Positions 19,358 to 32,495 of a stretch of 33,103 nucleotides of DNA are shown here, piece after piece; position 1 is the stretch's first letter, and each line of letters begins with the position of its first letter. The stretch covers positions 1 to 33,103 of the forward strand of contig JAJFVK010000011.1 of NCBI GenBank assembly GCA_021371795.1, in the 5' to 3' direction. A program made the translations under genes and the position numbers. The notes under the pieces are model-generated. The model ran no database searches. It saw only the letters and a program-made list of their open reading frames with translations, and was not told where the DNA came from. The DNA comes from Planctomycetaceae bacterium. GTDB taxonomy: Bacteria > Planctomycetota > Phycisphaerae > Sedimentisphaerales > UBA12454.

Positions 19358-20272
19358 TTACTTTTTTCTTAAAATCAATCCGCCGAGAGCCAGCAGGGTG
19401 ATGGTTGTCGGTTCGGGGATGAAAACTTGTATCCGGTTATTGCCATGATCTGCAACATAGACATATCCTGAAGCGTTAACTTCAAGTCCAATAGGATTAG
19501 TGAACTCTCCTTCACCAATACCACTTGCCCCCCACTGTTCTATAAAGCTACCACTACTTGTAAACTTCTTAATCAAGTTGTCATTATAAGCGGTTACATA
19601 TATGTTATCTGAAGAATCTATGGCTACGCCTTCTGGGTGATCGCATCCATACCATGTGTCTATAAAAGTACCATTTTCGCTAAATTTTTGTATTCGGTTA
19701 TTTCCATAGTCTGCAACATATACGTAGTTTAAAGAATCAACTGCAATAAAAGTAGGTGTGTCAAATTGACTGTTACCACTTCCTGTTTCACCCCAAATTA
19801 TTTCAACAATCCCGTTGTTAGTAAATTTTTTGATGGTATTAGTAGTTTCTTCTGTGATGAATATATATCCTGTAGGACTTACTGTTATGCCTATCGGATG
19901 ATTTGCATACCATGAATCCATTTCAGTATAACTGATTCCGTTGTTAGTTGAAAATTTATGAATGAGGTTTCCGCCTGCATCTGCAACATAAATATTTCCT
20001 GATTGATCTGCTGCGATACCCAAGGGATCGTTGCAATGCCATTGTGTTATATAAATTCCAGTACTGTCAAACTTTTGAATTCGATGGTTGTCATTGTCAG
20101 ATACATAAGCATTACCCGAAGAATCAAAAGCGATATCACGTGGTGAAATAAATTGTCCATTACCAGTTCCTTGGCTCCCCCATCCATTAATATATGAGTA
20201 AGCTCCAAAAACATAGGAGGTTGTTGCAAATAAAAATAACATCACCAATATTAAAGTTAACAACTTTTTCAT
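19358..20272 (-). CDS. NHL-repeat beta-propeller protein with PEP-CTERM sorting tail
   Basis: This 304-residue protein starts at the ATG at 20272, with AGGAG seven bases upstream and a clear signal peptide (MKKLLTLILVMLFLFATT, then YVFGAYS). The frame extends 48 codons further upstream, but that part is translated repeat DNA. The body holds about six NHL repeats of the form D-x-x-G-N-x-Y-V-x-D-x-x-N-x-R-I-x-K-F, enough for a six-bladed propeller. It ends IPEPTTITLLALGGLILRKK, a PEP-CTERM signal recognised by exosortase for surface placement. Its role is probably binding or display outside the cell. No exosortase gene is in view. It has its own terminator. Confidence 0.9.
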   Translation of the reverse strand: MKKLLTLILVMLFLFATTSYVFGAYSYINGWGSQGTGNGQFISPRDIAFDSSGNAYVSDNDNHRIQKFDSTGIYITQWHCNDPLGIAADQSGNIYVADAGGNLIHKFSTNNGISYTEMDSWYANHPIGITVSPTGYIFITEETTNTIKKFTNNGIVEIIWGETGSGNSQFDTPTFIAVDSLNYVYVADYGNNRIQKFSENGTFIDTWYGCDHPEGVAIDSSDNIYVTAYNDNLIKKFTSSGSFIEQWGASGIGEGEFTNPIGLEVNASGYVYVADHGNNRIQVFIPEPTTITLLALGGLILRKK

Positions 20273-20382
20273 GTTCTTCTCCTTTTCAAAAAAATATTTA
20301 ACGTGGATTCCCCCACAGGGGTTGTAACCGATCAGGTCGGGAATGACAGTTGACCGCGGACTTTCATCCTGCGGTACTGAAA

Positions 20383-20474
20383 CCCTGCCATAGTTTCCTT
20401 TGATTTTGTTTTTCAAGGTTTCCGCTGTGCCTCAACAAAATCCAGAAAATTCGGGATTTAAAATGCTGGCAGGG
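20383..20474 (+). repeat. Structured repeat element, copy A
   Basis: This 92-bp element runs from CCCTGCCA to TGGCAGGG (a perfect outer 8-bp stem). It has an inner GATTTTGTT/AACAAAATC stem of 9 bp and a middle stem TTTCC/GGGAT that forms partly. It is followed by CTAACCA. It aligns along its whole length with copy B at 22970, differing by substitutions and a 13-base insertion in the apical loop. It lies on the same strand as the capsid genes and divergent from the PEP-CTERM gene. Confidence 0.8.
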
Positions 20475-20797
20475 CTAACCACGAACTAAATACAACAAAA
20501 TGGTTATAAAATCTCTATGATGAATTGATGGAATGTCCCATTTTCTCTACCTCCTAAAAAATATTAACTTCTCTCATGTTCCCAACGTTATAAAAAACAT
20601 CCTACATTCTTAGTTTGCAATGTCAATAGGAATTATCCCTGAAATTTATCAGTCAATTATGCGCAAGCGAAAAAATGCGAGTTTTTAAATTTTTAAAATT
20701 TTTAAGCCATATTTGGCGGGTATTTGCGGCAATTTGTATTTTTTTTACGTCAGTCATTTCAAAAATGCGCACGCTTATATAAAGGGTAGAAGAATAA

Positions 20798-20828
20798 ATT
20801 AAATATCAAAAATTAAAAATCAAAATTG
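20798..20828 (+). repeat. AAAATCAAA-type repeat before the portal gene
   Basis: The 28 bases at 20801-20828 are identical to 30989-31016, near the far end of the capsid module. The block ends 17 bases before the GGAG of the portal gene. Confidence 0.8.
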
Positions 20829-20854
20829 TGGAAGATGTTTTTATTGGAGTAAAT

Positions 20855-22378
20855 ATGGCATTCGATTTTTCAAAATTAGAAGCAGAAAATATTAATCCGG
20901 CATTTATCAACTGGCTCGTCGATGAGCAATGGGTTGATATGCAATCGCATTTCGGCAAGCTGTGGGATTATTATCAGAATCCAATGTACTCGCCAATCGG
21001 TCTATCTGCCGCTGATTCAAAACTCAATGAATCAGCCAAGACCTACATTCAGGCACAGGAAATGGGACTGCCGGTGCGGATTACTGGTATCAAACGCACG
21101 CAGGCAAGCGGTATCACTGGCGGAAAAGCTGTCGCGGATGTCGAACGCAAAGAAGTTGTTATCGAAAACGATATCGGCTGGCGTGTGAATGCAATGGTTG
21201 ATTTTCTATTCGGCAAAGGTGTTGATATTGTCAGCAGGGCGGAAGACAAAAACAGACGCACAGAAATTGATAAAATCATCAAACAGGTATTCAATTCCAA
21301 CGGAGGAGTGAGATTCTTTCAGGATATGGCAGTGCTCGGAGCGGTTTATGGGTTCGTGGACTGCATTGTTCGGCCGGGACAGAAAATCGCGGAATTTTTA
21401 CGAACCCCCGGCATAAAGCCGGAGGCTAACGAGGTGATGGAACTGGTCAGCGATTGCAGTCTGGAATTAATAGAAGCCCAAAGAGCACTGCCTATTCTCG
21501 ATGAAAGAGATTATCGCAAAATTAATTTCTATGTTCAGCATTTCATTGAGCAGAAAAATGACATTTCATCCGAAGGAAATTTTCTGCGAAGACTCTTATC
21601 GCCTCAAAACAGCAACGCATCCAGAAGAACAACCGCTGTCACGGAAGTTTTATCGGCTGACTGGTGGCAGAGATATGAGGACAAACAGCTTGTTTCCGAA
21701 GGGGCAAATCTTCTTGGGATTCTTCCGGTTGTACACATTCAAAATATCGCGCAGCCATTGTATTATGAGGGTATCAGCGATGTCGAAGCACTTATTCCTC
21801 TGCAAGACGAACTAAACACAAGATTGAGCGACAGGGCGAGCAGGATAACTTTCCAGGCGTTCAAAATGTATCTGGCAAAGGGTATCGAGGGTGTTGAAAA
21901 TCGAGCGGTATCGCCGGGCAGAATGTGGTGCACGGATAATCCTGACGCGAGTATTCAGCAGTTCGGCGGAGACAGCAGTTCGCCGAGCGAAGATGTACAT
22001 ATTCAGGAAATACGCGAAGCATTAGACAAAACCAGCGGAGTTACGCCTGTGGCGGCGGGTGTGCTTAAAGACAAAATCGGAAATCTTACAAGCGCAATCG
22101 CATTGAAGATGACGCTGATGGGAATGCTGGCGAAGACTGAACGCAAACACTACGCTTACGGTCAGGGACTTAAAGAAATCGCGGCAATGGTAATGCATCT
22201 GCTTGATGTTACGAAGATTTATCCAAATGCAAAAGACGAAAGAGTCTTTGATGTTATCTTCCCAAGTCCGCTGCCGGAGAATACTTCCGAAAAACTCGAT
22301 GAAGCGAAAATGAAATTAGAAATCGGAGTATCGAAAGAACAAGTGCTGCGGGAGCTGGGATATGAAATGAAAATATAG
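20855..22378 (+). CDS. Phage portal protein (SPP1 Gp6-like)
   Basis: This 507-residue protein begins MAFDFSKLEAEN at 20855, with GGAG six bases upstream; a GTG nine codons earlier is weaker. The N-terminal part (INWLVDEQWVDMQSHFGKLWDYYQ) and the central EGISDVEALIPLQDELNTRLSDRA helix region fit SPP1-type portals. So does the KTSGVTPVAAGVLKDKIGNLTSAIALKM segment, which corresponds to the stem/crown region. Portals form the dodecameric ring at one capsid vertex through which the terminase pumps DNA. It is followed by a scaffold candidate and the major capsid gene, the usual order. Its sequence is intact throughout. Confidence 0.85.
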   Translation: MAFDFSKLEAENINPAFINWLVDEQWVDMQSHFGKLWDYYQNPMYSPIGLSAADSKLNESAKTYIQAQEMGLPVRITGIKRTQASGITGGKAVADVERKEVVIENDIGWRVNAMVDFLFGKGVDIVSRAEDKNRRTEIDKIIKQVFNSNGGVRFFQDMAVLGAVYGFVDCIVRPGQKIAEFLRTPGIKPEANEVMELVSDCSLELIEAQRALPILDERDYRKINFYVQHFIEQKNDISSEGNFLRRLLSPQNSNASRRTTAVTEVLSADWWQRYEDKQLVSEGANLLGILPVVHIQNIAQPLYYEGISDVEALIPLQDELNTRLSDRASRITFQAFKMYLAKGIEGVENRAVSPGRMWCTDNPDASIQQFGGDSSSPSEDVHIQEIREALDKTSGVTPVAAGVLKDKIGNLTSAIALKMTLMGMLAKTERKHYAYGQGLKEIAAMVMHLLDVTKIYPNAKDERVFDVIFPSPLPENTSEKLDEAKMKLEIGVSKEQVLRELGYEMKI

Positions 22379-22430
22379 ACACGGATTTACACTGTATTTT
22401 AGACACTGATTAACACGGATTTACACTGTA
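22378..22430. repeat. ACACGGATT-type repeat between portal and scaffold genes
   Basis: GACACGGATTTACACTGTA occurs twice (the second as AACACGGATTTACACTGTA), separated by TTTTAGACACTGATT. The block fills nearly the whole intergenic gap and ends before the AAAGGG site of the next gene. It is the same word type as 19140-19168. Confidence 0.8.
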
Positions 22431-22445
22431 TAGAAAGGGTTTTGA

Positions 22446-22958
22446 ATGAGTCAGAATGACACAGAAATTCAGGGTTCAGATGAACAAGAGCAGCGGGGCG
22501 AAAAACTCGTGGATGTGAGCGAGGCGATTCGGTACCGCAAAAGGGCACAGATGGCCGAGCAGAAGAAAACGCTTTTAGAGCAGGCGCTTATCGAGCACAA
22601 AAGTGAAATTGAAAAATTAAACAGAAATATTTCACAAATGTCTATCGAACGCCAGTTAATCGATAAGTTTGTTTCGGCAGGTGTGAAGGATTTGGAAGCG
22701 GCGGTAATTATCGGCAGAAGCAGGCTTGAAAAAGATTCTCAAGTCTCGGCTGACGATGTTGTTGAACAAATGCGGAAAGAAAAAAGTTATCTTTTCAGCG
22801 AATCGCCTGCTCCAACGGTAATCGCAAAGACAAGTGGAGTCAAAAACAAGTTGTCGCAGACAACAGGCGTTCTTGAACGTGCGGCGAAAAAAGCAAGCCA
22901 AACCAGTTCAAGAGCGGATTTGCAGGAGTACCTGCGAACAAGACGGAATTTATTGTAG
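22446..22958 (+). CDS. Candidate capsid scaffolding protein
   Basis: This 170-residue protein is highly charged and mostly helical. A coiled coil covers about residues 30-70 (AEQKKTLLEQALIEHKSEIEKLN...), and the C-terminus is basic (DLQEYLRTRRNLL). It lies between portal and major capsid genes, where scaffolding proteins are normally encoded, and has the size and composition of that class. No protease motif is visible. The call rests on position and composition rather than on a recognised family. Confidence 0.6.
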   Translation: MSQNDTEIQGSDEQEQRGEKLVDVSEAIRYRKRAQMAEQKKTLLEQALIEHKSEIEKLNRNISQMSIERQLIDKFVSAGVKDLEAAVIIGRSRLEKDSQVSADDVVEQMRKEKSYLFSESPAPTVIAKTSGVKNKLSQTTGVLERAAKKASQTSSRADLQEYLRTRRNLL

Positions 22959-22969
22959 TGAAATGACAA

Positions 22970-23048
22970 CCCTGCCAAGGTCTCCTCTGATTTTGTTTTT
23001 CAAGGAAAACAAAATCCTGAAGAATCGGAGATTGTAATGTTGGCAGGG
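22970..23048 (+). repeat. Structured repeat element, copy B, in the capsid gene leader
   Basis: This 79-bp element has CCCTGCCA/TGGCAGGG as outer stem, TCTCC/GGAGA as middle stem and an 11-bp GATTTTGTTTT/AAAACAAAATC apical stem. CTAACCA follows. It fills the gap between the scaffold stop (22958) and the capsid ribosome site (AAAGGAA, 23063-23069), so it would form the 5' leader or spacer of the capsid message. Confidence 0.85.
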
Positions 23049-23076
23049 CTAACCAACTATTGAAAGGAAATAAATT

Positions 23077-24231
23077 ATGGCATTTACAGGTAAATCAACA
23101 TATTCAGCAGGCGTAACACTGCCTGAAATAGCGGAAGACGTTTCTGACATTGTCGGAATCATATCGCCGGTGGAAACTTTTTTGCTCGATGCACTGGGCG
23201 ACCCGCTTCGTGAGGCAAGGAGCACATATCATGAATGGCTGGAAGATTCTCTGATTCCTAACAAAGACACTATCAGCGACAGTTCTATCAGTGTTCCTGA
23301 CACCGAAACCAGTTTCGATGTTATCAATGGCAGCAGATTTAGAACTGGTGACCAGATTCAGGCTGAAGGCAGCGAAGAGCTGATGCTTGTTACCGGTGTT
23401 TCCAGTAATACGCTGACTGTAGTGCGAGGTTATGCGGGTACAACGGCTGAAAATATAGCCGATGCACAAGTTGTTTATATTCTCGGCAACGCGGCGCTCG
23501 AAGGTGATGATAAGCCTGCGGCGAGATTTACCAATCGTGTTCGCTGCGGAAACTACACGCAGATTTTTACAGCAGGCGTTGAAGTAAGCGGTACCAATAT
23601 TGCCGCCAGTCATCTGGGTATTTCTGACGAGATGGATTATCAGAAATCGGAAAGACTGCGTGAACTTATCCGCGACCTTGAGAACACAATAATCAACGGC
23701 GGACAGCCAGCGGCCAATCCGCAAGGCTCGGCATCTGTTCGCAGGAGTATGAAAGGTATCGTGCAAAGCATTGATACAAATATATTCCGTACAGGTGATT
23801 CCGGTTTGCCGTCAGGTACGGAACTTGACGAGGCGAAAATCAATTACGTTCTTCGCAAGATTTGGGAAAACAGCTGCGGCACAGTAGATTTGATTGTTGT
23901 CGGCGGTTATCAGAAACGAAAAATCAACTCGTTCCTGACAGCAAGCAGAAGTTTCGGACCTGCTGATAAGGCCTACACCGATATGGTGAGCGTTTATGAA
24001 AGCGATTTCGGTGTTTGCAGGATTATCACCAGCAGGTGGGTTCCGCAGGATGCCGTTCTGTTCCTCGATTCTTCACGTGTCAGTGTACTTCCGCTTGCGG
24101 GCAGAAGCTTCCACTTCAAACCGCTGGCAAGCAGCGGCGATTATGAGTGCGGCCAGCTCATCGGCGAATACACACTCGAATTCAAGAATGAAGCTGCGCA
24201 CGGGGTCATCAGAGATTTGGCAACAGCGTAA
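23077..24231 (+). CDS. Major capsid protein, HK97 fold (DUF5309/SU10-like)
   Basis: This 384-residue protein opens with a family-typical stretch: EIAEDVSDIVGIISPVETFLLDALG followed by STYHEWLEDSL. The N-arm and E-loop region then contains an inserted beta domain (about 70-130, ending VVRGYAGTTAENIADAQVVYI). The central helix region holds RELIRDLENTIINGG, and the C-terminal A-domain contains DLIVVGGYQKRKINSF and the RWVPQDAVLFLDSSRVSVLPL strand. These match HK97-fold capsids of the DUF5309/SU10 group. AAAGGAA lies before the ATG. The gene is flanked by stable hairpins on both sides. There is no sign of decay. Confidence 0.85.
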   Translation: MAFTGKSTYSAGVTLPEIAEDVSDIVGIISPVETFLLDALGDPLREARSTYHEWLEDSLIPNKDTISDSSISVPDTETSFDVINGSRFRTGDQIQAEGSEELMLVTGVSSNTLTVVRGYAGTTAENIADAQVVYILGNAALEGDDKPAARFTNRVRCGNYTQIFTAGVEVSGTNIAASHLGISDEMDYQKSERLRELIRDLENTIINGGQPAANPQGSASVRRSMKGIVQSIDTNIFRTGDSGLPSGTELDEAKINYVLRKIWENSCGTVDLIVVGGYQKRKINSFLTASRSFGPADKAYTDMVSVYESDFGVCRIITSRWVPQDAVLFLDSSRVSVLPLAGRSFHFKPLASSGDYECGQLIGEYTLEFKNEAAHGVIRDLATA

Positions 24232-24253
24232 TTAAAAGAGGTTATATTTTTTC

Positions 24254-24313
24254 GGCTGGGTGCGTTTATCTACAGAACGATACATACTTAAAGGTTAGAT
24301 ATACCACCCGGCC
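24254..24313 (+). other. Two-tier hairpin downstream of the capsid gene
   Basis: GGCTGGGTG (24254-24262) pairs with CACCCGGCC (24305-24313) over nine positions, one of them G-U. Inside it, TATCTA (24267-24272) pairs with TAGATA (24296-24301). It starts 22 bases after the capsid stop codon. It resembles the A/B elements in design but not in sequence, and there is no T run directly after it. Confidence 0.65.
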
Positions 24314-24335
24314 AAAATTAACTAAAAACTTTGGA

Positions 24336-24360
24336 ATGGCTTCGCTATGTTTTTTATTTT
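24336..24360 (+). terminator. Weak terminator or attenuator after the capsid gene
   Basis: ATGGC-TTC-GCTAT forms a short five-pair stem (one G-U) directly before GTTTTTTATTTT. The stem is weak for full termination but could lower transcription into the tail genes, as is common after capsid genes. The T-rich tract runs up to the next ribosome site. Confidence 0.35.
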
Positions 24361-24371
24361 AAGAGGTAACA

Positions 24372-25034
24372 ATGAACAGTTTTTCAAATGATGTTGATAT
24401 TCTGAAATATGAGCCGATTTTGTTCGGCGATTTGCATTTCGCAGGTCAGGTGTTGGCAGGCGGAAGCGGCGCAACAATCAGCAACTCGATATTAAACGCT
24501 GCGGGTGGGAATTTTACAAACGCGCAAATCACGGCGGGAATGGTTGTTTATGTACATAACGAAGACAGAACCGTTGACTGCGTTTATGAGATTGTATCTG
24601 TAAATTCAGACACACAGCTTGCGATTTCAGTTCTGCGAGCGGATAACCAGACTAACGCTATTCCTGTACAAGACAGTGATGCGGTAAATTACAGAATCTG
24701 CACATATCAGGCGCAAAGCAATGAATTGCTTTTACAGCTTGCGCAGTATTTCGGATTACGGCCTGGGGTTGCGGATGGGCAATATAGCGTTGATGATATT
24801 CTCGATGCTTCTGTGCTCAAACAAGTTTCTGTTTATGGGGTTCTGTCGATTGTTTATGCGACGCTTGCGAGCAAGGCTGACAGCGATAAAGAAAATTTCT
24901 GGAAGAAGAGCGGCTATTACAGGCAGCTTTATGAAAAAGCGTTTCAACGATGCAAGATAAGCATTGATTTGGGCAATGATGAGATTGCTGATTTCGGATT
25001 TAACGGCTCAAGCGTCAGATTGATGAGGGACTAA
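24372..25034 (+). CDS. Unknown virion protein, head-completion candidate
   Basis: This 220-residue protein has two parts. Residues about 25-115 are beta-rich (DRTVDCVYEIVSVNSDTQLAISVLR) and resemble in pattern the inserted beta domain of the capsid protein. Residues about 118-220 are helical and include YSVDDILDASVLKQVSVYGVLSIVYATL and a KKSGYYRQLYEKAF segment. The helical pattern and the position right after the capsid gene fit an adaptor or connector protein, but I recognise no family. It is followed after one base by the next gene. GAGGTAA precedes the start. Confidence 0.5.
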   Translation: MNSFSNDVDILKYEPILFGDLHFAGQVLAGGSGATISNSILNAAGGNFTNAQITAGMVVYVHNEDRTVDCVYEIVSVNSDTQLAISVLRADNQTNAIPVQDSDAVNYRICTYQAQSNELLLQLAQYFGLRPGVADGQYSVDDILDASVLKQVSVYGVLSIVYATLASKADSDKENFWKKSGYYRQLYEKAFQRCKISIDLGNDEIADFGFNGSSVRLMRD

Positions 25035-25035
25035 T

Positions 25036-25401
25036 ATGCGGCCTGCGTTAGATAATATATTTTTTGATGATGAAACTTTTGAAATCGAAGTCAAAACGCT
25101 CAATAGAGGCGTTGTTCAGCGGTCTGCGGCGGGGCTTGACGGTCAATTAACCATCGATATGGGGCTTCGTGAGAGAAAACTTGCGCAAACAGGGCAACTG
25201 CGGGCTAAGAATGAAGCCGAGCTTCAGCGGCAAATCGATGCAATCAACGAATTGATTGACGGGCAACTGCATATTTTAAGAAGTTCGGACGGCAGGGTGT
25301 TTGATAATCTTCTTGTTGAGACGTTTGAGACTGAATCAGTTATCAAAAGCGGAGCGTACATGAGCTGTTCATATCATATCACATATATCAAACAGGCATA
25401 A
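25036..25401 (+). CDS. Small virion protein of unknown role, tail or connector candidate
   Basis: This 121-residue protein has beta strands at both ends (TFEIEVKTLNRG; SVIKSGAYMSCSYHITYIK) around a helix rich in Q, E and R (about 50-78, AKNEAELQRQIDAINELID). The size and strand-helix-strand layout resemble small head-tail joining proteins, but I cannot name a family. It is tightly packed between its neighbours (1 bp on each side), which suggests that they act in the same assembly step. GAGGGA lies before the start. Confidence 0.5.
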   Translation: MRPALDNIFFDDETFEIEVKTLNRGVVQRSAAGLDGQLTIDMGLRERKLAQTGQLRAKNEAELQRQIDAINELIDGQLHILRSSDGRVFDNLLVETFETESVIKSGAYMSCSYHITYIKQA

Positions 25402-25402
25402 T

Positions 25403-26119
25403 ATGATTTTAAGCGATGGAATAAGTAACGTTCGTGTGTTTTCGCTGCCAGTAGGTGTAAGCGGAGACGGAAAGTCAAATCAGCTTACAGGATTTGTTCT
25501 TGTCAAATGGCAATCCACCTACAATCTGCCGCATCAGGTTTATGTCAACGGCAAATTCGGCGGAGCAACAACAGACACTTCGCAAAGACAAATGATTATA
25601 TCTGTGCCGATGTCGCAACAGGCCGCTGTCAGGATAGAAGTCTATGCGGTAGATTCGCAAAACGCTGATACCGATTTTTCAGAGCTAACCGAGTCGGGAC
25701 GTAATTTATCCCGCGTCAAAATAGAGTTTCCAAAAATGACAGGCGGCTACATTGATATTTATCGTGAGGATGAGAAACTTACCAATGAGGCAATAAGAAT
25801 TTCTGAACTTATCGGGTTTGGGCTTGGCAGTTTCGGCCAAAGCGATTTCGGGTTTGACGGCGGAGCGGCAAGCGGATTCGGCAAAGGAGTATTTGGTTGC
25901 GGGCGATTTGGTTTCGACGCTGATATGTTCTGCTGGCAAAGTCGGCAACTTGGTACCGGAGTGCATAGCTTCAAACTGAAAATCACAGATTGCAATGGTA
26001 ATCAAACAGAAAGTGCGACCGAGACAGTAACCATCATTCAACAGGCGAAACCTGCTGGAAAAGTAACAATAGATTCTTTTGACAAACAAACCAACAAAAT
26101 AACTTTAAGCACATTATAG
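25403..26119 (+). CDS. Tail/fibre protein with a Gly-Phe-rich segment
   Basis: This 238-residue protein has beta-sandwich-like sequence at residues about 25-80 and 185-220. Between them lies a Gly-Phe-Asp-rich stretch (about 137-175) in which GFG/DFGF words repeat: FGLGSFGQSDFGFDGG and later FGCGRFGFDADMF. Similar FGxGxFGxxxFG stretches occur in phage tail and fibre proteins. The flanks look like fibronectin type III or Ig-like domains. The exact virion role is unknown. It starts 1 bp after the previous gene. Confidence 0.5.
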   Translation: MILSDGISNVRVFSLPVGVSGDGKSNQLTGFVLVKWQSTYNLPHQVYVNGKFGGATTDTSQRQMIISVPMSQQAAVRIEVYAVDSQNADTDFSELTESGRNLSRVKIEFPKMTGGYIDIYREDEKLTNEAIRISELIGFGLGSFGQSDFGFDGGAASGFGKGVFGCGRFGFDADMFCWQSRQLGTGVHSFKLKITDCNGNQTESATETVTIIQQAKPAGKVTIDSFDKQTNKITLSTL

Positions 26120-26130
26120 GAGATTTTCAA

Positions 26131-26577
26131 ATGAGTGAAGTTTATCCATCAGACAGCGAACTGCTGAATATTTTGAACGACAGTGAGACCGGTGTTGAGT
26201 ACATCTCGACTGGTAAATCGCCTTATTATCTTGAATTTCGCAAACTGCTTTACCGGCTGATTCTGGCAACTAAAAGAGCGAATGACTTGCGTGTCTTTGA
26301 TGAGGGTGGTTTGAATATCGGCGTTAAAAGCGGCAAGTTTTGGGTCGGCACAACGCTTGTTGAATACGCAGGGACAAGCGGAAATACCCTGGCCGACGAC
26401 AAAAGCAATATCTATGTTTATATCGACTCGTCAGGCACTCTGGTTATCAACGAGTATTCGCAATTTCCAACGATGTCGACAACTCCGCATTTGAGGCTGG
26501 CAATCATCACCACAAGCGGCGGAGATATCACATCGGTTACCGACGCAAGATGTAATTACTACGTACCGGGAGTATAA
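26131..26577 (+). CDS. Tail-fibre-like protein of unknown family
   Basis: This 148-residue protein has a helical N-terminus (PSDSELLNILNDSETGVEYISTG...FRKLLYRLILATKRAND) followed by beta-rich sequence (GLNIGVKSGKFWVGTTLVEYAG, NIYVYIDSSGTLVINEY). The HLRLAIITTSGGDITSVTDAR ending is a pattern common in fibre and collar proteins of phages that carry host-recognition modules. It lies two bases before the beta-helix gene and probably forms the base of the same appendage. TAGGAG precedes the start. Confidence 0.5.
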   Translation: MSEVYPSDSELLNILNDSETGVEYISTGKSPYYLEFRKLLYRLILATKRANDLRVFDEGGLNIGVKSGKFWVGTTLVEYAGTSGNTLADDKSNIYVYIDSSGTLVINEYSQFPTMSTTPHLRLAIITTSGGDITSVTDARCNYYVPGV

Positions 26578-26579
26578 TC

Positions 26580-27710
26580 ATGGCGGATAAATTCATATCA
26601 TCGGCCGGGCCTTTGGGAACTGGCGACGGCAACAGCGAAGCAAATGCCTGGAGTTTGGCAAACGCATTGGCAGGTGCGACAGCGGGTGATTATGTCTGGA
26701 TTAAAAACGACGGCGTATATTACGGAATATTTACGGTAGGGTGCACAGGGTCTTATGCTGACAATACGCACATCTACTTTATTGGCTACAACAACATTGC
26801 TAACTGCGATTTGGTAAATCATATCAGCGATATGGATATGGGGCAGACATTCTGGGGCGGGCCAATGAATCCCACAGCTTCCAATTGCTGGGTCGATATA
26901 GACGGGCAGGGCGCAACCAATCACGTGGTCTATCAATATCAGAAAAATAATGTTCACTGGCGGAATATTCATTTTCACAACAATAGCAAAACAGCCAATT
27001 ACAGCGCGTTTTACGTCAAGTATTGCAGCGGCGTTACTTTTAGCAAGTGCAAGTTTACGGATGGTTATATAAATCTGTGGGTCGATACGAACAGCACAAG
27101 CTGTATGATTAAATATTGCTACTTCAGCGATTATGGCGCGACGAATCTCGATATCGGCGGCGGAAGCTATCTGAACATTTACTCGCATTGCGTTTTCAAC
27201 GGCGGACATGCAAAGATGTACAGGTCGGTCGGATGCAACAGTATATTCATCGGCGGAAATTACGGTATCGGAGCGTACTATTATCAGAATATTGTTTTTA
27301 ATAATACAATGTACGGCCAAACATCGTATTGTCTCTGTTATGGACACAATTCTTATGCCGGCGGTTTAATCGAATACAATAACATCTTCATTCCCGCTGC
27401 GAAAAATATTCCGGCCATTTATCGAAATGGAAGCGGGTCACTGGCGTATTCAGGTTGTGGCTGTGCTTACAGTGTTGCAGATGATTCTGTTTTGGATACG
27501 CCTTATAGCGGCGAAGACGGACTTAACGTCAATCCGCAATTTGTCAACGCGGCAGCCAACGATTTTCGGGTACTCAATCCACTGCTTTTGCGAGGAGGTA
27601 TGCCGGATTTCACAGGCAGGCAAACACAAATCGGCGCAGTGCTTCAGCAATATCAGTTCACAAAACGTTCGGCAGCAGGTAATCCTGCGAGGATGTCAAT
27701 TTTTAAATGA
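26580..27710 (+). CDS. Right-handed beta-helix protein, tailspike candidate
   Basis: This 376-residue protein opens ADKFISSAGPLGTGDGNSEANAWSLANALAG, the start seen in many pectate-lyase-like beta-helix proteins. It continues with irregular coils of about 22 residues rich in N, G, Y and C (for example NVHWRNIHFHNNS, VTFSKCKFTDGYINLWV, MIKYCYFSDYGATNLDI). Such folds serve as receptor-binding or polysaccharide-degrading tailspikes. No catalytic triad can be assigned. There is no signal peptide, which argues for a virion part rather than a secreted enzyme. GGGAG overlaps the end of the previous gene. Confidence 0.65.
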   Translation: MADKFISSAGPLGTGDGNSEANAWSLANALAGATAGDYVWIKNDGVYYGIFTVGCTGSYADNTHIYFIGYNNIANCDLVNHISDMDMGQTFWGGPMNPTASNCWVDIDGQGATNHVVYQYQKNNVHWRNIHFHNNSKTANYSAFYVKYCSGVTFSKCKFTDGYINLWVDTNSTSCMIKYCYFSDYGATNLDIGGGSYLNIYSHCVFNGGHAKMYRSVGCNSIFIGGNYGIGAYYYQNIVFNNTMYGQTSYCLCYGHNSYAGGLIEYNNIFIPAAKNIPAIYRNGSGSLAYSGCGCAYSVADDSVLDTPYSGEDGLNVNPQFVNAAANDFRVLNPLLLRGGMPDFTGRQTQIGAVLQQYQFTKRSAAGNPARMSIFK

Positions 27711-27738
27711 TGCCACTAAGGCACGAAGAAAAGGCAAC
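27711..27738. repeat. CACTAAGGCACGAAG-type repeat
   Basis: GCCACTAAGGCACGAAGAAAAGGCAAC holds three GGCAC/GCCAC words at about 10-bp spacing in the gap after the beta-helix gene. It is a variant of the CACGAA family at 30615. Confidence 0.55.
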
Positions 27739-27759
27739 TTAAAAAATAGGAGTTTTTTA

Positions 27760-28197
27760 ATGGCAAATACAGCAATCAATATACCTTTTTATGTCGCTAA
27801 AGACGGTCAGCCTTTGGCTGGCGCGGCAAGTGAAATGAATTTTGAAACTTTAATCACAACCGACGGCACAAATAAAGTCAGCTCCGCGCCGGTCATCAGT
27901 GAAATCGGCGGAGGATGGTACAAGTTCGGCGTTGCTTACGGCACATCTCCATTTGACGCGGGCGATTTGGTCGGCGTTATCGATGCCGACAAAGACGGTG
28001 TGAACTCTTTGGCAAACGCGGAAAGATATATTCCAGTTGAAGTCAGGCTCGATTTTTACAGTCTGCTGCGGAATGTTTATCCGATGTCGCAAAACAAACT
28101 TTCCGGCGATATGGAAATTAAAAATTCAAACGGCGATACAATATTGACGCTGGATATAGCGGATAATACAAGCGAGGTTGAAAGAGCACCTCAATAG
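27760..28197 (+). CDS. Virion-associated protein of unknown family
   Basis: This 145-residue protein starts at the ATG at 27760, with TAGGAG eight bases upstream; the open frame reaches much further upstream but overlaps the beta-helix gene. It begins MANTAINIPFYVAKDGQPLAG and is beta-rich, with GGGWYKFGVAYGTSPFDAGDLVGVIDADKDG and a C-terminal SGDMEIKNSNGDTILTLDIAD. This pattern is seen in phage accessory fibre or baseplate proteins that precede longer tail genes. No enzymatic motif is visible. Confidence 0.55.
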   Translation: MANTAINIPFYVAKDGQPLAGAASEMNFETLITTDGTNKVSSAPVISEIGGGWYKFGVAYGTSPFDAGDLVGVIDADKDGVNSLANAERYIPVEVRLDFYSLLRNVYPMSQNKLSGDMEIKNSNGDTILTLDIADNTSEVERAPQ

Positions 28198-28198
28198 C

Positions 28199-28246
28199 TA
28201 CAGAGTTTTTTTTGTTTTGCCACAGAGAACACAGAGCTCACAGAGA
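28199..28246. repeat. CACAGAG repeat before a tail gene
   Basis: Four CAGAG words are present, the last three as CACAGAG at 9-bp spacing (28221, 28230 and 28239). It is the same word as the menA block at 17662-17740. It fills the gap, and its last unit lies seven bases before the next start codon, which has no other ribosome site. Confidence 0.8.
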
Positions 28247-28252
28247 AATAAA

Positions 28253-28915
28253 ATGGAAACTAAATTTTTTGATAGTTTACACAACGGCGACTCGGCCAAC
28301 GGAGTCAAACTTTGTATGGGAATTACTGACGGCGATTTCTGGAGCCGTTCGGCTGGCGGACAGGTTTTGTACAAAGGACAAGCCATCGGCGAAGTTGATT
28401 TTGAAACGATTGAAGACGCTACCAATGTCGACGAAAAATTCCAAATCACAGGCGGCGGAGCTTCGAGCAGGACTTATTACATCGTGCGAAGAGTCAACTG
28501 CTGCGGCGATGAAGAAAAGACCATTAACGCTGTTATACGCGTGGAATTCGACAGTTTGGGCAACCTCATAGAACAAGGCTGTAACAAAATTATCAATGTG
28601 TCAGCGGAACAAGTTGATGGCGATAAAATAAAGCTAAGATGGTTTTATCATGTTATCAATCAGGCTCAAAAAATCGAAAAATTCAATATCTATAGCGATA
28701 ACGGAATAGGCACAATCGATTATCAAACGCCAATCGGCAGTGTTGAATATACGGGGCGTAAGTTTTATCAGTTTATCACGACTGCTCTTGCCGAAAGTCA
28801 TTATCGCTTTTGCATAAGAGTTGTTACGAATAATAATCTTAATGGCGAAGTTAGAGTCTGGCTCAACAGGCAATCTCCCGAAGGAATTGGAGTAATAATA
28901 TGTCAAACAATATAG
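28253..28915 (+). CDS. Tail protein with Fn3-like C-terminal domain
   Basis: This 220-residue protein starts at the ATG at 28253 (METKFFDSLHNGD); the longer frame would translate the CACAGAG repeat. The N-terminal half is beta-rich with TYYIVRRVNCCGDEE. The C-terminal half (about 118-215) has the pattern of a fibronectin type III domain: KLRWFYHVINQAQKIEKFNIYSDNG...YRFCIRVVTNN. The role is probably structural, in the tail or fibre. There is no standard Shine-Dalgarno site; the repeat-derived CAGAG is the only purine-rich sequence nearby. It overlaps the next gene by 16 bp. Confidence 0.5.
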   Translation: METKFFDSLHNGDSANGVKLCMGITDGDFWSRSAGGQVLYKGQAIGEVDFETIEDATNVDEKFQITGGGASSRTYYIVRRVNCCGDEEKTINAVIRVEFDSLGNLIEQGCNKIINVSAEQVDGDKIKLRWFYHVINQAQKIEKFNIYSDNGIGTIDYQTPIGSVEYTGRKFYQFITTALAESHYRFCIRVVTNNNLNGEVRVWLNRQSPEGIGVIICQTI

Positions 28916-30612
28916 AATTTTATCAGCCGCAGAATAATAACCTTGCTGTTGGCGCTGTCAGTGCGAGCATTTATCTCGATGGGCAATTTTGCGATTGTCT
29001 GACTGTCGAAAGTATCACGCTGGCGGGTGTGCCGGAGTTTAATCAGGCGGTGTTGTCCTTTCTTCCCCTACACGATGATGTCAGGTGTGGGCAAAAGATT
29101 GATATTAAAACTGTTTATGACGCTGGGATTGGTACAACTTGTCCAGATGAATTGATTATTTTCTCCGGATTCATCGAGCAAATCGAAATAGCCCAAACCA
29201 CAACAATCATCGCGAAAGATTATTCGGCCAAGCTCAAACGCAAAACAGTTTACGGTCAAAACATCCGCAACGATAATGGGCAAGCGGTATTCATCAAATC
29301 CGCGGACACGGTCTTTAATCCTGCCGGTCAGCCTAATATGGCCCAAGGCGAAATTCTGTTCGCTGCCGAGGAGAATGACGCAATTACGTTCACTTGCGCA
29401 GATGCGATTTATTATCTTTTACATACTTACATCGCACCAGGGGAGCTGATTTATCCGATTTTGGAACAGCTTCAAACGCTGGCCAATAATTGCGCAATTC
29501 GCGATGTCGATGTTACGGGCCTTAGTCTCATTGATGCTCTTTCGCGATGCTGCAAACAGGCGGGACTGCGATTCAAGTTTTCTGTCGATTCGCGGGTTAT
29601 CGTATTTTACAGGCCGGGGATTGGCAGGGCGGTTGAGCTGAATTGTCAGTGGCAGGGCGAAACGCTCAATGTTTCCAAAACTAATATCGCACAAGTTACT
29701 CGCAAACAAAATCCTGTGATTACCAATCGGTACATCGTGCAGGGTGATTACAAAATTTTCGAGGCGACTTTCAATCTTGTCAAAGGCTGGAATCCGGCGA
29801 TTGAGACGACAACTTATGATTTGTATTCGCCGACCACGAACGAGAATTTCAATAATGTGCGAGATGTTTACCGCAAATGGGTGCTAAACGAATCTGGCGA
29901 CTACACAGCAAGTCCGTACAATCAGGGCAGCGCATTTGATTTTTCTAAAATTTTTCAGACGGACAAATATATTCGCAAAGCACGGCGATTTTATCCTTCG
30001 CTTGCCTGCGGAGACGACGGCGGGTCTATCGGATATTATCTTGAGATGTCATACACCAACGGCAGTAAGTGGTGGCATTATATGAGTTCGTTCAAGGTTC
30101 TGCTCGACCAGTGCGGAATCTGGCTTTCCGTTGAGCAGTTCGATTCGGATATGTGGTTCGCGATTCTTAAAGGCGTGCTGAAAATCAGGATTACAGCGTC
30201 GGTTCTTTCCGATGAGAGAATTAATTATACCGCTTGCGATGGTGCGGTTGGCTCAATTATACCGGTGGTTGACAAAATCGTTACGCTGCCCAAGAGATTC
30301 AAATATCAGAAAGTTTCATCGCAGAGTGCGTTCGTCGGCTCAACAGCAAACGAAATCGACGACACCGCATCCATCGTCGCTTATGCAAATAATCTTTGCA
30401 GCGTCGGACTATCTGCCGGTGAGAATTTGCAAATCAAAACAATGACAGCGATGCCTTATTTTTCGCCGGGCGACAGAATTATTACAAGCCCAGACAGCAG
30501 AGACATTCTCGGCGTTCTGTACGATACAAGAAATGTCTGCTGCGTCGAAAAGGCGCACGTGGATTTCGTAAATCAGCAGACAATTTTAACGGCAGCTAAA
30601 AAACGAAAATGA
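28900..30612 (+). CDS. Large tail hub/baseplate-like protein
   Basis: This 570-residue protein is the longest in the capsid module. Its N-terminal 100 residues form a beta domain of the kind seen at the start of tail-hub proteins (ASIYLDGQFCDCLTVESITLAG...FSGFIEQIEI). The segment DVTGLSLIDALSRCCKQAGLRFKFSVDSRVIVF (about 205-238) resembles hub and secretin-type N-domains. The C-terminal part (ENLQIKTMTAMPYFSPGDRII) is again like hub proteins. It has a high cysteine content for a virion protein. No peptidoglycan hydrolase motif is visible. The function is inferred from position and weak pattern only. GGAG precedes the start. Confidence 0.55.
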   Translation: MSNNIEFYQPQNNNLAVGAVSASIYLDGQFCDCLTVESITLAGVPEFNQAVLSFLPLHDDVRCGQKIDIKTVYDAGIGTTCPDELIIFSGFIEQIEIAQTTTIIAKDYSAKLKRKTVYGQNIRNDNGQAVFIKSADTVFNPAGQPNMAQGEILFAAEENDAITFTCADAIYYLLHTYIAPGELIYPILEQLQTLANNCAIRDVDVTGLSLIDALSRCCKQAGLRFKFSVDSRVIVFYRPGIGRAVELNCQWQGETLNVSKTNIAQVTRKQNPVITNRYIVQGDYKIFEATFNLVKGWNPAIETTTYDLYSPTTNENFNNVRDVYRKWVLNESGDYTASPYNQGSAFDFSKIFQTDKYIRKARRFYPSLACGDDGGSIGYYLEMSYTNGSKWWHYMSSFKVLLDQCGIWLSVEQFDSDMWFAILKGVLKIRITASVLSDERINYTACDGAVGSIIPVVDKIVTLPKRFKYQKVSSQSAFVGSTANEIDDTASIVAYANNLCSVGLSAGENLQIKTMTAMPYFSPGDRIITSPDSRDILGVLYDTRNVCCVEKAHVDFVNQQTILTAAKKRK

Positions 30613-30614
30613 AA

Positions 30615-30643
30615 CCACGAACGAACACGAATTGACACGAAGG
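30615..30643. repeat. CACGAA repeat
   Basis: CACGAACGAA, CACGAATTGA and CACGAAGG follow one another at a 10-bp period right after the hub gene. The last unit merges into the AAGGAAA ribosome site of the next gene. Confidence 0.75.
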
Positions 30644-30650
30644 AAAAATA

Positions 30651-30983
30651 ATGTCAGACGAATTAACACAAAATGAGCAGCAGCAGTTAATCAGTCGATT
30701 AATGCGGAACAGCGACGGCCCGAACGAGAACGCGTTCGTAACATCAGCGGGCGGCAAAATAGCCGGCTTTGTCGCGAAAGTCGTAAGCAAATATAACTAC
30801 AACCACTACAACGTCAGAGCGGTCGAACTCAATCCCTGCGGGGTTCCGCCAATGGTTGTCGGCAGCAGCGTTATCGCGGTCAATGTCGCAGAAGATTTTT
30901 CCGAGCAGGGCAATCTGGCGGCAGGGACATACGTGGTAATGTTCAGGATAGGGGAATACTATTGTTTTTATGCGATACCATAA
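30651..30983 (+). CDS. Small protein of unknown function in the capsid module
   Basis: This 110-residue protein has a polar helical N-terminus (LTQNEQQQLISRLMRNSDG) and a beta-rich body (KIAGFVAKVVSKYNYNHYNVRAVEL, SSVIAVNVAEDF, GTYVVMFRIGEYYCFYAI). The body looks like a small barrel such as the OB-like domains of tail needle, spike or fibre-cap proteins. No family is recognised. It has a good AAGGAAA ribosome site that lies partly in the CACGAA repeat. Confidence 0.5.
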   Translation: MSDELTQNEQQQLISRLMRNSDGPNENAFVTSAGGKIAGFVAKVVSKYNYNHYNVRAVELNPCGVPPMVVGSSVIAVNVAEDFSEQGNLAAGTYVVMFRIGEYYCFYAIP

Positions 30984-31016
30984 AAATCAAATATCAAAAA
31001 TTAAAAATCAAAATTG
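30984..31016 (+). repeat. AAAATCAAA-type repeat, copy identical to 20801-20828
   Basis: Bases 30989-31016 are identical to 20801-20828 over 28 positions, in the same orientation. They lie between two capsid-module genes. A small ATCCC-TTC-GGGAT hairpin follows at 31021-31033. Confidence 0.8.
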
Positions 31017-31042
31017 AGGAATCCCTTCGGGATGGATTTGTT

Positions 31043-31333
31043 ATGACTCCGGTACAAGAAAATAAACGATGGAACTTTAATAAGCAGATAGACCTTTCCG
31101 TTATGATTGAACTGATTTTTCTTGCAGCGCTGATTGTCGGAACGTGGGTTAATCTGCAAAAACAGCTTTCACTGCTTCAGCATGATTTAACAAGTCTTTT
31201 AGAAACGCAAAAGCAGTTTCAGCAGCGAATCGAAGAATTGAGCCGAACAAGCATAACTTATGAATACCGTCTGCGTTCAATCGAAAAATCTTTACCACAA
31301 GCCGATATTGGAAACGAAAGAAAGATGCAATAG
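31043..31333 (+). CDS. Membrane-anchored coiled-coil protein, lysis candidate
   Basis: This 96-residue protein starts at the ATG at 31043 (MTPVQENKRWNFNKQ), with GGATGGA nearby. One hydrophobic helix (about 16-36, IDLSVMIELIFLAALIVGTWV) is followed by a coiled coil (about 37-80, LQKQLSLLQHDLTSLLETQKQFQQRIEEL). Holin-associated and spanin-like lysis proteins have this layout and often follow the tail genes, but so do unrelated anchors. No endolysin is found beside it. The open frame extends 27 codons upstream through the repeat, which is unlikely to be translated. Confidence 0.55.
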   Translation: MTPVQENKRWNFNKQIDLSVMIELIFLAALIVGTWVNLQKQLSLLQHDLTSLLETQKQFQQRIEELSRTSITYEYRLRSIEKSLPQADIGNERKMQ

Positions 31334-31361
31334 TTCATTTTAACAGTGTTTGGTATAATAA

Positions 31362-32438
31362 TTATGCGATACAATTACAAATCTGTGGTTTGAAATTTAA
31401 GTGTTGATATATCTCATTGTCTTCGCGGCAAATCGCAAGTGAAGTTTTGTTGTAGCTGCTAATATTTTCTATCATAAATTTGTAGAATTCGATGCGTTTT
31501 TCAGTGCTGTATCGCAATTTGCCGTCTTCGGCCGTTTCACATAATGATGCAAATAAATCAGAGTTGATATTGTATGCTTTTTGGGAGAGTTTGGTGTGGC
31601 CTTTGAAAAGCCTTAAAGTTCCAATGGTTATATTTTCCGGTTCTGTGTTCCTGAATATTTTTTCTATCAGCGAGGCGTATTCCCGCTTCCAGTTGTCGCA
31701 AAGAATGCCGGGGTCTATTCGGAATCTTATTCTGTAGCCGTGCTGCTGGCACTGTTTTGCGGCATTTATTCTTTCTTCAAGGTCGGCGGTTCCGAGTTCA
31801 TAGTTATCTATAATCGTTTGAGGGTTTAAGCTCCATGATACGACAACCTGATTGTTGGGTTTTAATTTTAATAAATTATCAATATTGCAACTTTTTGTGA
31901 GCATCATCAGGTAACTGTTTTTCAAATTGCCAAAGAATGGAATAAGCAGTGATGATATGTTTGTGATATGGTCGAACGCAAGACTGTCGAGCATTTCGCC
32001 GAGATTAAAACAGATTTTATTTTGACTTTGTAATGAGAGTTTTTGTATTTGCTCGAGCATTTTAGAATAATTGATATTGATTTTTATGAAAGCGCCGTAT
32101 CTTCTGTAAACATACGCAAGATAGCAATAGACGCAATGATATGGACAGCCGTTTGAAAGCGGAACAAGTTTATAATACGGGAAGCACCTCATATTGTTCC
32201 CTATGTTTCCGTCAAAGTGATTGATAAACGATGATGTGCTTCCAATCATAAGGACTTTTTTGCTCTTCAGTAAAACTTCGGCGGAGGACAAGGCGTCTGA
32301 ATGGGTCAGTTTTTGATTTTTAATTATTTTTACTTCAGTGTTTTTGAATAATGATATGATTCTCCGTGCCTCAAAATTATCGCTAATTCTGTTCCAGAGA
32401 TAAATCACATCAGGTTTAAAATTTTTCGCAGCATCCAT
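31362..32438 (-). CDS. Spore photoproduct lyase-like radical SAM protein
   Basis: The 358-residue form starts at the ATG at 32438; a TTG ten codons earlier is possible, and neither has a Shine-Dalgarno site. The radical SAM motif CPYHCVYC gives C98, C102 and C105. YKLVPLSNGC before it and VVVSWSLNPQTIIDNYELGTADLEERI after it match the SPL family, as does the YRIRFRIDPGI strand. SPL uses a hydrogen-donating cysteine (C141 in Bacillus). By my alignment the equivalent place, in GEMLDSLAFDHIT, is E148, so thymine-dimer repair is doubtful. It is AT-rich and lies opposite to the capsid genes, like a phage accessory gene. Confidence 0.85.
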   Translation of the reverse strand: MDAAKNFKPDVIYLWNRISDNFEARRIISLFKNTEVKIIKNQKLTHSDALSSAEVLLKSKKVLMIGSTSSFINHFDGNIGNNMRCFPYYKLVPLSNGCPYHCVYCYLAYVYRRYGAFIKININYSKMLEQIQKLSLQSQNKICFNLGEMLDSLAFDHITNISSLLIPFFGNLKNSYLMMLTKSCNIDNLLKLKPNNQVVVSWSLNPQTIIDNYELGTADLEERINAAKQCQQHGYRIRFRIDPGILCDNWKREYASLIEKIFRNTEPENITIGTLRLFKGHTKLSQKAYNINSDLFASLCETAEDGKLRYSTEKRIEFYKFMIENISSYNKTSLAICREDNEIYQHLNFKPQICNCIA

Positions 32439-32495
32439 AAGTATTGTTATTTTAATTTTTTGGCACAAATTTAAAAGAGAAATTTTAAAAAAACA

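Follow-up and report, generated by a model that had tools for sequence, protein, structure and literature searches.

The window analysed here, a stretch of 33,103 nt (contig JAJFVK010000011.1 of the Planctomycetaceae bacterium assembly GCA_021371795.1), carries a portal-scaffold-capsid gene cluster (20846-32468) and two copies of a hairpin element, of which copy A lies upstream of the portal gene and copy B in the spacer between the scaffold and capsid genes (Table 1). Judged from sequence comparison, the cluster has the look of a domesticated, gene-transfer-agent-like locus passed on vertically, and not of a recent prophage. Of 98 genomes from the order, 69 have the capsid gene, in nearly every case as a single copy, and its identity (84-90% within the genus, 60-80% across the order) drops with kinship. 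The genomes G001, G003 and G004, and partly G009, share the gene order from the portal gene onwards as well as the host genes alongside (ManB, M48, MenA, cupin and ferritin). At the right end of the cluster lies a radical-SAM-like gene (31362-32468), which also adjoins the cluster in relatives (54-70% identity; L360, L361 and L363). Positions 19358-20278, in the interval from the ferritin to the portal gene, encode an NHL-repeat protein whose end is PEP-CTERM-like; its best match, below the cut-off, is of the ScyF type, and no homologue was found in seven capsid-gene regions of relatives.

A preliminary description had placed copy A at 20383-20474 and copy B at 22970-23048, each followed directly by CTAACCA, and had taken them for diverged copies of one three-stem hairpin with a compensatory change. 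Re-reading and alignment bear out both the coordinates and the fold. The stems CCCTGCCA/TGGCAGGG and GATTTTGTT/AACAAAATC do not differ between the copies, and the changes reported for the middle stem are correct: a C-G pair in B corresponds to T-A in A, the next T-A pair to T-G, and a further pair is T-T in A. The genome holds four long copies (A, B, C19:47534 and C19:373627) that can be aligned across all three stems, with 99% of the cells paired and both-side changes at four pairs, compared with a mean of 1.3 after shuffling. Relative to shuffled sequences, folding reaches a z-score of -5.4 for B and -1.7 for A, the weaker fold of A being due to 13-14 additional bp in its apical loop. The element was also said to match no named RNA family, in agreement with an Rfam scan of the window, which gave no match above the gathering score.

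Table 1. Positions of copies A and B, their parts and the downstream capsid gene in the window.
Feature	Position	Strand	Basis
Copy A, long nested REP-type hairpin, 92 bp	20383..20474		covariance model, 99.3 bits
Foot of A: CTAA on +, TTAG 5' of the hairpin on -	20475..20478	-	conserved in all family members read
Palindromic module in the loop of A, between TAG and TGC	20394..20463	+	module cut-out
Middle stem of A	20392-20398 with 20453-20459	+	four-copy alignment; one mismatch
Inner stem of A	GATTTTGTT 20402-20410 with AACAAAATC 20434-20442	+	four-copy alignment
Copy B, long nested REP-type hairpin, 79 bp, scaffold-capsid spacer	22970..23048		110.8 bits
Foot of B: CTAA on +, TTAG 5' of the hairpin on -	23049..23052	-	as for A
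Palindromic module in the loop of B	22981..23037	+	AGGTGT, known as a short loop, remains after cut-out
Middle stem of B	22979-22985 with 23027-23033	+	four-copy alignment
Inner stem of B	GATTTTGTT 22989-22997 with AACAAAATC 23008-23016	+	four-copy alignment
Capsid gene downstream of B (context only)	23077..24231	+	phage major head protein phrog_1328, E 6e-73

A and B belong to a set of roughly 60 or more related elements in this genome, which fall into several size classes and have many different stem sequences. Searched with covariance models, the genome has at least 62 matches to the long form and at least 42 to the middle form, and eight relatives of the same family have from at least 4 to at least 51 matches each; these are lower bounds, since the best 150 candidates were scored per genome. 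In five genomes from other families of the order, one weak match was found among the best 150 candidates per genome. The 15-mer TGGCAGGGCTAACCA, allowing up to two mismatches, occurs at 22 places in the 2.85-Mb genome compared with 3 for the reversed control, and single relatives carry up to 18 exact copies. When about 85,000 species were scanned for the short and middle forms, 108 stretches were returned, and 79 of 80 among the stretches listed belong to Planctomycetota, many of them labelled Phycisphaerae or Sedimentisphaerales. The elements are mostly extragenic, as 4 of 44 entries (a set in which a few places were found twice) fall inside a long open reading frame, compared with 77% of random points. 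As in REP elements, we are thus dealing with a short palindrome that has many dispersed extragenic copies. The covariance-model search of the genome and its relatives that had been proposed at the outset yielded many copies, and their settings are unrelated intergenic places.

Short (22 bp), middle (40-43 bp) and long (78-92 bp) copies share the same arms and tail. The basic unit is a 22-bp hairpin, with a core stem of 8-9 bp and a loop of about 6 nt, followed by CTAA; because CTAA stands 3' of the hairpin, the opposite strand reads as a TTAG-hairpin, which resembles the GTAG-hairpin of REPs. The fold is conserved while the stem sequence is free, with variants such as CCCTGCC, CCCCGCC, CCCAGCC, CCCGGCC, CCCCGTC and CCCCATC each found with a matching partner. 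Among 53 distinct short variants, for which ACCC and GGGCTAA were the sole selection criteria, 97.5% of the cells are paired and six of the nine pairs are altered on both sides. The 70 both-side changes compare with 19 in shuffles, none of 500 shuffles being as high, and the covariation score, 0.41, is higher than in any of the 500 shuffles (mean 0.13) or any slid control. The preliminary description, which had argued in favour of selection on the folded form and against plain duplication, was therefore right, and these variants make the case even stronger. However, covariation of this strength is equally compatible with a single-stranded DNA substrate and with an RNA, and by itself it is no proof of RNA function, because a DNA hairpin substrate yields the same signal.

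The Y1 transposase family PF01797 is present in 52 of 59 genomes. Several hairpin-CTAA elements stand on each side of genes of about 185 amino acids that resemble REP-associated tyrosine transposases (RAYTs), including the gene that the own genome carries on contig C19; by contrast, none was found beside ordinary IS200-type genes, nor around L063-L067, five further Y1 genes of this genome. A scan of the transposase flanks that requires GGCAGGG-like tails misses the sister hairpins, which a scan with free stems recovers. In this clade of about 185 amino acids (FTTYGTWLPNDPRGS; L068, L073, L075, L076, L079 and L080) the genes are flanked by GTTTAG-hairpins, which thus have a TTAG foot too and stems such as CCGTCGCCGG.

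A second RAYT clade (clade 2, P0001, about 150 amino acids) carries CCC-type hairpins, the same class as A and B. Across 28 clade-2 loci, 32 of 55 flanks (58%) have a hairpin within 200 bp, compared with 0-6% in further 200-bp bins; hairpins lie on both sides at 12 loci and on one side at 8, and the flank scan found no such hairpin at the other 8. With no tail required, hairpins occur at 4.4 per kb within 250 bp of RAYT genes compared with 0.19 per kb beyond 500 bp, and the commonest neighbour of those near RAYT genes is CTAA. For example, the RAYT gene of G003, a genome of the same genus, is preceded by CCCCACCAAGGTGTTGGTGGGG-ctaaccacga and CCCCATCATGGTGATGATGGGG-ctaaccacga and followed by CCCTGCCGAAGTGTCGGCAGGG-ctaacc, and these flanks show the loop, tail and flank of the A/B family.

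In the RAYT protein, H85 and H87 (the HxH motif) and Y143 are invariant in 13 sequences, as in a Y1 HuH enzyme. The NCBIfam model REP_Tyr_transpos scores 44.2 and 32.5 bits on the RAYTs (E 1.7e-11 and 6.7e-8), below its curated cut-off of 80. A single-sequence search of solved structures gave nothing; profile and fold searches did match, and the predicted structure (pLDDT 76) resembles the IS200, IS608 and ISDra2 transposases and the REP-bound RAYT 4er8. On such profile and fold similarities, the RAYT beside the hairpins is a divergent relative of the REP_Tyr_transpos family. The association characteristic of REPs, that they flank a RAYT gene, is therefore seen for the A/B subtype in relatives, the same genus included, but not in the own genome. 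No clade-2 member was found there, so that the pairing of this subtype with a RAYT is drawn from relatives, and the own-genome copies look orphaned or may depend on the C19 RAYT, which is flanked by sister hairpins bearing the same foot.

Taken together, A and B are very probably long members of a REP-type repeat family, a TTAG-foot hairpin spread by a Y1 (HuH) RAYT, with B as one of its insertions. We call the family REP-type rather than canonical REP, because all its members that were read have TTAG instead of GT[AG]G 5' of the stem. By analogy with known systems (PMC2817692, PMC6006769), the RAYT would recognise the folded single strand, cut it and spread copies to intergenic sites, and the stem pairs would covary because only foldable copies serve as substrates.

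In the middle and long classes, a module sits between the two halves of a short loop. Cutting out this module restores an observed short loop in 30 of 56 middle or long copies; other cuts restore 3 to 27 of 56, a neighbouring cut being nearly as good. Removal from B leaves the known loop AGGTGT, and two other long copies likewise return to a known loop; from A it leaves TAGTGC, which is not in the observed set and is one base away from common loops. The modules are TCC...GGATTNAAA palindromes, some of which hold a GATTTTGTT/AACAAAATC hairpin. We also observed a further palindromic repeat, CTTCGACTnnGCTCAGGACAGG, in short-hairpin loops at L153, L187, L206 and L235.

Since short and long forms share their arms and tail, no single pair of copies shows the direction of change, and the same REP family could in principle have had a long nested ancestor from which short hairpins arose by deletion. 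This reverse direction is unlikely. Several unrelated module sequences share one loop position, and modules are also found in other settings: the GATTTTGTT-type module occurs alone at many places and in REPs with a different outer stem, and a TCCCC..GGGGATTG module lies within the loop of a GATTTTGTT-type module in two species (L111 and L325). Moreover, the copies that flank RAYT genes are mostly of the short form. We therefore infer that the long form arose by insertion into the loop rather than by deletion. The hairpin loop may act as a hot spot in which palindromic modules settle through a single-strand event, giving rise to the nested forms. For the TCCCCGCAAGGGGATTGTAA module, a stand-alone search returned just two places, both of them nested copies, so that its independent mobility is argued from nested contexts only. 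A broader hypothesis, possible though doubtful, is that the REP loops of these bacteria are single-stranded docking sites: several unrelated palindromes, themselves lacking a transposase, would enter them at a precise position, leave no target duplication and build up nested elements stepwise, with the TTAG-foot RAYTs as the engine. Which palindromes go into which loops can be read from the nested copies.

The position of B raises a different question, that is, whether it acts as a structured RNA of the capsid mRNA leader (a stability element, processing site or attenuator), with A as its partner upstream of the head operon. B had been described as the immediate leader of the capsid gene, and the position stands: the element ends 28 bp before the ATG, and the 118-bp scaffold-capsid spacer consists mostly of B plus its foot. 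B also folds well, its pairs covary, and in other bacteria transcribed REPs can influence how stable an mRNA is (PMC3733652). The implied regulatory RNA, however, is not supported. None of 29 orthologous capsid leaders in relatives, six of them from the same genus and with capsid identities from 90% to 72%, has the element, their spacers being mostly 30-99 bp; it is also absent from this place in viral relatives, and a viral scan for the hairpin gave five matches, none of which makes a phage family that carries it. Likewise, copy A is absent from the ferritin-portal spacers of G003 and G004. Dozens of copies stand elsewhere. On the + strand the hairpin is not followed by a T-run, and it does not include the likely ribosome-binding site, GAAAGGAA; a terminator or a simple translation block is therefore unlikely. 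A leader RNA is therefore very improbable, and B is best read as one insertion of the REP-type family that this lineage has fixed at a permissive place ahead of the capsid gene, although it may have a secondary, local effect. Other common repeats (GATTCCCGC..GCGGGAATGACA and GCCACAGAGGCACAAAG) were seen in the capsid leaders of L330, L335, L336, L337 and L350, that is, in the same pre-capsid spacer, which points to a tolerant insertion spot.

The least probable reading, which we give hardly any weight, is that of a classical MITE, in other words a DDE-type transposon that is non-autonomous and has terminal inverted repeats and target duplications: the elements are indeed short, dispersed, palindromic and intergenic, but Y1 transposase genes are where the hairpins cluster, neither B nor the nested copies show an evident target duplication, and a free stem sequence with pairing kept is unlike the fixed terminal repeats read by a DDE enzyme. 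According to the preliminary description, many copies in unrelated settings with transposon-like terminal duplications would indicate a MITE-type repeat; the former were found, and none of the latter was evident at B or at nested copies, which points to a REP-type single-strand element. On inspection, integron attC sites (core RYYYAAC/GTTRRRY) were rejected because GGCTAAC does not fit RYYYAAC, and phage att sites were rejected because A and B stand on either side of two genes within the cluster, those for portal and scaffold, and because the copies are dispersed.

The TTAG-foot family is closest to the REPs with their RAYT or TnpA-REP proteins (PMC2817692, PMC3116915, PMC6006769). In both, a short, dispersed, extragenic hairpin has a conserved, unpaired tetranucleotide at its foot and flanks a Y1 HuH transposase gene, and the stem drifts while its pairing is kept. 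However, known REPs have GT[AG]G at the stem foot (PMC6006769), whereas here the foot is TTAG, the RAYT clades are divergent, palindromes are nested in the loops and the own genome is without a RAYT of the cognate clade. The class 3 TnpA-Y1 proteins, which occur mainly in Planctomycetes and have atypical flanking structures, are similar in coming from a related phylum, in their NHVH and W[TA] motifs and in the many copies of their REP-like structures; they differ in their foot, reported as CnGA, and in a Y-motif ending in EQ (PMC6006769), compared with TTAG and mostly YVxxH in the present clade. The GTAG and CGTC superfamilies of REPs, which are reported from Planctomycetes as well, are likewise tagged palindromes, some of which lie within other palindromes (PMC3733652), but a TTAG tag is absent from the main texts of both PMC6006769 and PMC3733652. 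Finally, REPs are known as targets of insertion sequences (PMC1525189; ISPpu9, PMC8450116), so that there too a palindromic repeat is the insertion site of another element, although the inserts described here are short non-coding palindromes that sit in mid-loop and in up to three layers. REP/RAYT systems would thus include a divergent type without the GTAG foot, common in a Planctomycetota order known mainly from metagenomes, and its many natural RAYT-hairpin pairs could show how the foot tetranucleotide is read.
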